NCBI RefSeq assembly: GCF_003369835.1
Contig: NZ_QPMJ01000002.1
Span: 744,001 to 808,000 of the forward strand
Reading direction: 5' to 3'
Source: Halorussus rarus
GTDB taxonomy: Archaea; Halobacteriota; Halobacteria; Halobacteriales; Haladaptataceae
DNA: 64,000 bases
This document shows, one piece after another, positions 1,446 through 59,068 of the stretch. The notes under the pieces were generated by a model. The model was not told the DNA's origin, made no database searches, and was given only the letters and a program-made list of their open reading frames with translations. The position numbers and the translations under genes are program-made. Every line of letters starts with the position of its first letter. Position 1 is the stretch's first letter.

Positions 1446-1512
1446 CGCTGGCCCCCTCGCACCGCGGCGGCGTGCGGTGGGACGACGGTGTCCGGTGGGG
1501 CGACCTCGCGGG

Positions 1513-2415
1513 TCACGGCCGGCCTCCCGGCGCCACGATGGACCGGATCTCGGCGTCGGCGTCGACCAGGTCGCGCTCCTTCATCCAGTCGAGGTGCTCG
1601 CGGAGCTCGTCGTAGTCGGCGAGCTCGGGCGCCTCGTACTCGGGCACGGTGATCTGGTCGCGGACCGCGTCCACGTCGACGTCCTCGAACAGGTCGGGCG
1701 CGACCGCCTCGTCCTTGCCCAGCATGTCGAGGTAGTCGTCCCGGAACTCGGCGGGGTTCTCGTTGATGTCCTCGACGGCGCGGCGATAGCCGGCCACGAA
1801 CTTCCGGAGCGCCTCCCCCGTCAGCTGCTCGCCGCCCACGATTCCCATGTGGTTCTCGAACTCCATGACGCGCTCGAAGCCCAGCTCCTCGGCCAGCGTG
1901 CTGTGGGGTTCGAGCAGCGTCGCGGCCTCGACCTCGCCGTCGCGGAGCGCCCGCAGGCGGTCGGTGGGCATCCCCTGGTGGTCGAGGGTCACGTCCTCGG
2001 GCGGCACGTGCTCCTCCAGCGCCCGGATAGCGGTGTACTCCTGGCCGGTCCGGCGGTTGACCCCGACCGGCACCCCCGCGAGGTCCGCCGGTTCCTCGAC
2101 GTCGGTGTCGGGTCGCGTGAACACGGCGTACGGCTGGTCGGCGAACGTCCCCTTGGCCACCACCTTCCCGTCGTGCATCTCCCAGGTGCGCTTGAGGCTC
2201 TCCCACTTGCAGATGGGATACAGGTCCACGTCGTAGTCGTCGGTCAGCGTCTCCTCGGCCGGGATGTACTTGCGCTCGACCTCCTCCCGGTCGCGCTCCA
2301 CGAGCTCGACCCGTAACCCCTCGTCCCCGAAGTACCCCCGCTCGCTCGCCACCCGCTGGGGCAGCATGAACGAGAACGGCAGGTGAAAGAGCCGAACGGT
2401 CGTTTGTTCGGACAT
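1513..2415 (-). CDS. Solute-binding-fold protein, first gene of a three-gene operon
   Basis: 300 residues starting MSEQTTVRLFHLPFSFMLPQ, then a GYFGDEGLRVELVE segment like the first helix-strand of NMT1/SsuA binding proteins, and a lobe-2 segment EPADLAGVPVGVNRRTGQEY. There is no export signal. It lies 67 bases ahead of the next gene of the same fold on the same strand and is divergent from a cupin gene. The intergenic region carries an AT-rich stretch suited to a promoter in each direction. Function is unknown. A tandem trio of soluble members of this fold suggests either subunits of one complex or steps in one small-molecule pathway (inference). Confidence 0.75.
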   Translation of the reverse strand: MSEQTTVRLFHLPFSFMLPQRVASERGYFGDEGLRVELVERDREEVERKYIPAEETLTDDYDVDLYPICKWESLKRTWEMHDGKVVAKGTFADQPYAVFTRPDTDVEEPADLAGVPVGVNRRTGQEYTAIRALEEHVPPEDVTLDHQGMPTDRLRALRDGEVEAATLLEPHSTLAEELGFERVMEFENHMGIVGGEQLTGEALRKFVAGYRRAVEDINENPAEFRDDYLDMLGKDEAVAPDLFEDVDVDAVRDQITVPEYEAPELADYDELREHLDWMKERDLVDADAEIRSIVAPGGRP

Positions 2416-43408: not shown

Positions 43409-43891
43409 GTGACGACCGACGACACCGACCGTCCGGTCATCGCCGTCCCCGCGTCAGTTCGCGACGAAATCGTCGCACACGCTCGCGAGGGTGCGCCCGA
43501 GGAGGTCTGCGGGATCCTCGCGGGTGTTCGTGAGGCTCGAGGCGAAGCCGACCGGACACGACACCGCGTCGAGAGCCGACACCCGGCCGCAAACGTCGCC
43601 GAGACGCCCCGGACGCGCTACGAAATCGATCCCCGCGAGCAGCTCGACCTGCTGGAGCGGATCGAGGACGCGGGCCGGGAAGTAGTGGGTTTCTACCACT
43701 CGCATCCGCGGGGACCGGCCGCCCCGAGCGCCACCGACGCCGCGCAGGCGACGTGGCCCGACAGGTCGTACGTCATCGTCTCGTTGGGGAACGACGAAGG
43801 AGAACCAGAGGCCTCGCTCGGGGCGTGGCGCTGGAACGGCGAGGAGTTCGTCGAGGAGACGGTCCGACTCGCGGACGCGGAGTCCGCGTGA
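43409..43891 (+). CDS. JAMM/MPN+ metalloprotease (desampylase-like)
   Basis: 160 residues. MPN+ fold with EEVCGILAGV (Glu near 31-32) and the JAMM motif VGFYHSHPRGPAAPSATDAA (His 97, His 99, Ser 107, Asp 110), the zinc site used to cleave isopeptide or C-terminal peptide bonds of ubiquitin-like proteins. The Haloferax enzyme HvJAMM1 removes SAMPs from targets. A SAMP1-like gene lies 15 kb away (58778-59068). Start GTG 43409 gives a 160-residue protein. Adjacent to a membrane protein gene on the other strand. Confidence 0.92.
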   Translation: MTTDDTDRPVIAVPASVRDEIVAHAREGAPEEVCGILAGVREARGEADRTRHRVESRHPAANVAETPRTRYEIDPREQLDLLERIEDAGREVVGFYHSHPRGPAAPSATDAAQATWPDRSYVIVSLGNDEGEPEASLGAWRWNGEEFVEETVRLADAESA

Positions 43892-58777: not shown

Positions 58778-59068
58778 TCAGGGCGCGGTTACGGACCCGC
58801 CGCTGACCGGCGGGAACAGCGCGAGCTCGTCGCCGTCGTCGAGCTCGGTGTCGAGGCCGTCCTCGGCGTGGACGTTCGTCCCGTTCCGGAGGACGTTGAT
58901 GTGGTCGCGCAGGTCGCCCTCCTCGTCGTAGATTCGGTCCTCCAGGCCGGGGTGGTCGGCGACCAGCGCCGCGAGCGCCGCCCCGACCGTCTCGCCGGGG
59001 TCGGCGTCGACGTCGACCCGCTTGCCGCCGGCGATCTCGGCGAGGTCCGCGAACAGCTTCCACTCCAT
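58778..59068 (-). CDS. samp1: SAMP1-like ubiquitin-fold protein with a C-terminal tail after the diglycine
   Basis: 96 residues of the MoaD/SAMP1 beta-grasp family: MEWKLFADLAEIAGGKRVDV, DLRDHINVLRNGTNVHAEDG, then ELALFPPVSGG. The Haloferax SAMP1 ends exactly at VSGG. Here a five-residue tail, SVTAP (92-96), follows Gly91, so the diglycine is internal and would need trimming before adenylation by UbaA-type E1. Functions of SAMP1 include protein sampylation and molybdopterin sulfur transfer. A JAMM protease gene lies at 43409. Start ATG 59068 matches the family N-terminus. Confidence 0.9.
   Translation of the reverse strand: MEWKLFADLAEIAGGKRVDVDADPGETVGAALAALVADHPGLEDRIYDEEGDLRDHINVLRNGTNVHAEDGLDTELDDGDELALFPPVSGGSVTAP

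Follow-up and report, generated by a model that had tools for sequence, protein, structure and literature searches.

The SAMP1 protein of Halorussus rarus is encoded with five extra residues behind its diglycine, and in the Halobacteria genomes examined such tails are confined to those that also carry the desampylase JAMM1. Our reading, to which we give a probability of about 0.77, is that JAMM1 removes the SAMP1 tail so that the E1 enzyme UbaA can use the terminal glycine. According to this scheme, samp1 would be translated as a pro-form, and JAMM1, a metalloprotease, would sever the linear peptide bond after VSGG, in the same way as it acts on conjugates of SAMPs and on their linear fusions, freeing the C-terminal glycine for adenylation by UbaA and hence for sulfur transfer to MoaE in molybdopterin synthesis and for sampylation. 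E1 enzymes of the UbaA type act on a free C-terminal glycine, be it that of a SAMP, MoaD or ubiquitin, and a tailed SAMP would therefore have to be cut before it could function. The presence of JAMM1 would let tails come and go by drift.

The samp1 gene and its tail

The initial annotation of the window (the whole 64,000-nucleotide stretch of H. rarus DNA that was analysed) described a SAMP1-like protein with an internal diglycine and an SVTAP tail, and both the translation and the profile searches bear this description out. The open reading frame specifies 96 amino acids, beginning MEWKLFADLAE and ending ELALFPPVSGG-SVTAP, and reaches 134.5 bits with NF041918, the equivalog model for SAMP1 (cut-off 60), and 67 bits with PF02597 (cut-off 22.5). 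The NF041918 match stops at residue 91, which is the second glycine, leaving SVTAP outside the family model. Residues 1–91 align with the solved SAMP1 structures 2l83, 3po0 and 4hro (E about 1e-27), which places them in the beta-grasp fold, and the alignment to the solved Haloferax volcanii SAMP1 likewise ends at the diglycine. The gene product is a bona fide SAMP1. The diglycine that is expected at the end of such a protein lies here at residues 90–91 and is followed by SVTAP; lacking an encoded terminal GG, the product is therefore classed as a SAMP1 precursor, one that would gain a terminal diglycine only after the proposed processing. In an AlphaFold model of the tailed protein (pLDDT 81.5, with strands and helices) residues 90–96 fall below pLDDT 50, consistent with a tail that is exposed and flexible. 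The coordinates of the features are given in Table 1.

Table 1. Positions in the window of the samp1 and JAMM1 genes and of their relevant parts
Feature	Position	Strand	Basis and remarks
samp1 ORF, 96 aa precursor	58778..59068	(-)	stop codon 58778-58780; translation, profile and structure match
VSGG codons, conserved functional C-terminus of mature SAMP1	58796..58807	(-)	GG = 58796-58801; FPPVSGG invariance
Five-codon SVTAP tail, predicted to be removed	58781..58795	(-)	reading frame, junction edits, AlphaFold
JAMM1 desampylase (HvJAMM1-type), proposed maturase	43409..43891	(+)	GTG start; profile match
Catalytic-type Glu32 codon of JAMM1 (within EVCGIL)	43502..43504	(+)	motif reading
JAMM motif H-S-H-x7-S-x2-D (HSHPRGPAAPSATD)	43697..43738	(+)	motif reading

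A sequencing or assembly error that conceals a stop codon after GG could give the same appearance, and it would fit both the GC-rich junction and the fact that all eight of the other Halorussus species sampled have TAG, TGA or TAA immediately after GG. However, when single-base substitutions, insertions and deletions were enumerated around the junction, none of them yielded VSGG followed by a stop, which excludes a simple one-base misreading as the source of the tail. Tails also occur independently in 86 other genomes, a recurrence that makes an error of any kind extremely improbable, and the annotators' statement that the frame runs on with no obvious frameshift stands. Since all eight relatives stop at GG, the tail is new in H. 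rarus. Comparison with genome G172 (GGG-TGACGCG) hints that it may be a 15-bp in-frame insertion ahead of an ancestral TGA, but the 3' spacers have diverged too far for this to be more than a hint.

Distribution of tails and of JAMM1

SAMP1 was surveyed for tails in 391 Halobacteria genomes, one genome per species, with matches to SAMP3-like proteins and to a third type of ubiquitin-like protein (Ubl) also examined, and the results were refined by reading 3' end sequences; many untailed calls are stops at the first position after GG in the table of search matches, and others come from the 3' end sequence. Tailed SAMP1 was found in 87 genomes from 26 genera, that is, in 86 besides H. rarus (loci L014, L035, L047 and L257 are examples). 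The occurrence of tails is labile between lineages, with one tailed species out of nine in Halorussus, 31 out of 45 in Halorubrum and six out of six in Halalkalicoccus. In an alignment of 24 diverse SAMP1 proteins, tailed and untailed, FPPVSGG is invariant, while a few genera have FPPVTGG in its place. At least 45 genomes, from 20 genera and all with JAMM1, have a tailed form of the SAMP3-like paralog, whose diglycine end reads VAGG.

The annotation had also pointed to a JAMM desampylase-like gene in the same window, and this identification was upheld by a score of 171.4 bits against the desampylase model NF041370 (cut-off 130) and by an intact catalytic motif (E32...H97-S-H99-x7-S107-x2-D110). 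Judged by these sequence features, the gene encodes the halophilic desampylase JAMM1. It lies 15 kb from samp1, and the two genes are about 14–24 kb apart in the untailed Halorussus species as well; we rejected their proximity as functional evidence, as this linkage is ordinary Halorussus synteny. A second JAB protein, JAMM2-like, is encoded elsewhere in the H. rarus genome (L082, G000:C1:903622-903930) and scored 41.8 bits in the JAB search, as against 86 bits for JAMM1.

A search for JAMM1 divided the 391 genomes into 295 with it and 96 without it. Its absence from these looks real, since in the 80 of them that were checked the JAB matches reached only about 28–50 bits, similar to H. rarus JAMM2, and no 86-bit match of the JAMM1 type was present. 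Every JAMM1-free genome checked retains at least one JAB match of JAMM2-like strength. In three of the JAMM1-free genomes JAB-domain matches (G161:C1:2800068-2800418, G180:C10:58884-59240 and G209:C24:114200-114535) lie within open frames of about 780 amino acids, which are possibly E1-JAMM fusions like Nmag_0356 (PMC3403918).

Tailed SAMP1 was present in 87 of 293 genomes with JAMM1 and in none of 85 without it, the 85 being the JAMM1-free genomes in which SAMP1 was examined, with seven further JAMM1-free genomes that have SAMP1 lying outside the count; all 87 tailed genomes have JAMM1. The 85 genomes also gave no tailed match to the SAMP3-like or third-type Ubl, and the SAMP3-like protein, found in 29 JAMM1-free genomes, was untailed in all. 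The association is strict, one-way and correlative. Together with the published cleavage of linear SAMP extensions by JAMM proteases, it lends support to the annotators' proposal that the tail needs processing and that JAMM1 is the candidate processor. The tail might instead be removed by a carboxypeptidase or a general trimming peptidase, with JAMM1 a bystander, and tails that are short and disordered could in principle be nibbled back to GG by a carboxypeptidase-type activity. Such a protease does not predict the lack of tails in 85 JAMM1-free genomes, nor the same rule in two different Ubl genes, and we consider its involvement improbable.

Because the genomes are related, and some JAMM1-free genera cluster in one family, tails might merely have happened to arise in clades that kept JAMM1. 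The Fisher test at the level of genomes (p = 7e-12) is inflated by this relatedness, but with genera as units the contrast is still 26 of 68 with JAMM1 versus 0 of 22 without it (p = 1.5e-4), and the JAMM1-free units are spread over seven families (f2, f3, f4, f5, f7, f8 and f10). When JAMM1 status was permuted within families p was 0.0008, and a simulation of independent evolution under the Mk model, on a taxonomy tree built from genus and family ranks with assumed branch lengths, gave a probability of 0.00015–0.00085 for none in 85, that is, at most 0.0009. In three mixed genera (g45, g52 and g68) the tailed species have JAMM1 and every JAMM1-free congener is untailed, and the SAMP3-like gene shows the same pattern as SAMP1. 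A sign test on the SAMP1 gene tree found only two independent pairs on supported branches, none contrary, and hence has no power, a weakness of the tree that leaves coincidence some room. Taken with the matched congeneric contrasts, these tests make phylogenetic coincidence very improbable.

Other ubiquitin-like proteins of H. rarus

All three GG-type Ubls found in the H. rarus genome, SAMP2 not among them, are tailed, with SVTAP, AGDQATGTVETNR and RWRRQKSRSRR. Only one strong E1-like match of the ThiF type and a single MoaE are encoded alongside them, so that maturation would be required for any of the three. It is conceivable that the tail is kept, and that tailed SAMP1 is a decaying or moonlighting gene which no longer takes part in conjugation and sulfur transfer or else has a non-covalent role. 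The intact reading frame would suit this explanation, as would the lack of any tail sequence conserved between genera. On the other hand, FPPVSGG is invariant in tailed proteins, the E1 and MoaE have been retained in a genome whose Ubls of this type are all tailed, and a tail that is kept does not predict the restriction to JAMM1-bearing genomes; we therefore hold this explanation to be quite improbable, and return to removal of the tail by JAMM1 as the preferred reading.

Some 1.4 kb separates the SAMP3-like gene from a fourth ThiS-like ORF of H. rarus (L078, G000:C2:826856-829966; match 1501-1611, minus strand), whose C-terminus, MYPFIFCC, has Cys-Cys at the position expected for the diglycine.

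Comparison with known systems and implications

Carriers related to ThiS and MoaD from which a JAMM protease removes the residues after GG are familiar from bacteria, where the pairs QbsE/QbsD and HcyS/HcyD differ from the H. rarus case in being pathway-specific and in sharing an operon with the protease. Our knowledge of SAMP biology has been established in Hfx. volcanii, whose SAMP1 is born mature. The annotators had supposed that precursor processing was not described for archaeal SAMPs, and in this they were mistaken: Fuchs et al. (2018, PMC6043591) showed that native SAMP precursors of Caldiarchaeum subterraneum are substrates of CsJAMM, and in vivo a linear SAMP1-MoaE fusion is cut at VSGG by HvJAMM1 in a GG-dependent manner (PMC4443979). 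The Caldiarchaeum system likewise pairs precursors of SAMP/MoaD-type Ubls (Csub_C0702 and Csub_C1603) with a cleaving JAMM protease (PMC6043591), but it belongs to another archaeal phylum, csjamm adjoins one of the samp genes by locus number (C0702/C0703), and cleavage has been shown there, whereas for H. rarus SAMP1 we infer it. Hfx. volcanii has the same SAMP1 and desampylase equivalogs as H. rarus; its SAMP1, however, is encoded in the mature form ending in VSGG, and the linear substrate used was an engineered fusion (PMC4443979). The CsUb precursor with CsRpn11, and the eukaryotic ubiquitin, SUMO and NEDD8 precursors, are also short-tailed Ubls matured by a protease, JAMM or other, although CsUb is a ubiquitin-type Ubl and CsRpn11 an Rpn11-type JAMM that is inactive on SAMP precursors. 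As in a JAMM-processed Ubl precursor, native residues follow the diglycine in H. rarus, and JAMM1 accompanies tailed SAMP1 in 87 of 87 genomes.

The open literature, subscription papers lying outside the search, contained no report of tails on haloarchaeal SAMPs or of their confinement to genomes with JAMM1, and as far as could be found it is these tails, together with the rule that they occur strictly with JAMM1, that are new. We think it fairly likely, with less assurance than for the processing of SAMP1 itself, that JAMM1 is a deconjugase and also the maturase of its own modifiers in roughly a quarter of the surveyed haloarchaeal species, and that an evolutionary ratchet operates in which tailed SAMPs make JAMM1 impossible to lose and tails cannot survive its loss. 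If so, the role of JAMM1 differs between Haloferax, which is untailed, and, for example, Halorubrum, which is mostly tailed, and deletion of JAMM1 in Halorubrum should abolish molybdopterin synthesis and sampylation. Should pro-SAMPs prove common in haloarchaea, JAMM1 would serve the SAMP cycle at its start as well as at its end, like deubiquitinating enzymes (DUBs) for ubiquitin. The rule of none in 85 allows a clear-cut genetic prediction, and tails that occur in nature offer a ready library of substrates for haloarchaeal JAMM1. Annotation and mass spectrometry searches built on the expectation of a terminal GG will go wrong on tailed SAMPs.

Sequence and origin of the tails

The SAMP1 tails are mostly 1–8 residues long (8 or fewer in 82 of 87), mostly begin with Ser or Ala, and vary between genera with none conserved, while FPPVSGG before them is kept. 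Nothing indicates that the sequence of the H. rarus tail matters; this tail probably originated by drift, tolerated owing to the presence of JAMM1. We disfavour simple stop loss as the general origin of tails: in untailed SAMP1 genes the next in-frame stop lies at a median of 45 codons downstream, and within 8 codons in only 7%, so that stop loss would give far longer tails than those observed. Extensions of 113 and 37 residues do occur, in the Halalkalicoccus-type genome G060 (L023) and in G283 (L266), and L023 shows a TGA-to-TCA change after the SGRR tail known from a congener.

Arg stands directly before the stop in 54 of 86 tails; for untailed SAMP1, where the residue ahead of the following in-frame stop further downstream was read instead, the count is 38 of 169. 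Shared Halorubrum ancestry accounts in part for this excess. At the Halorubrum loci (L035-L074) the samp1 tail and stop abut a conserved ATAGATCGGTCGTTTCAAACG just upstream of the ATG of the next gene. This element is probably the promoter or leader of that gene, and it may constrain the last tail codons of Halorubrum samp1. As the stop lies against this conserved upstream sequence, we do not claim a conserved function for the Halorubrum tails (xxGR).
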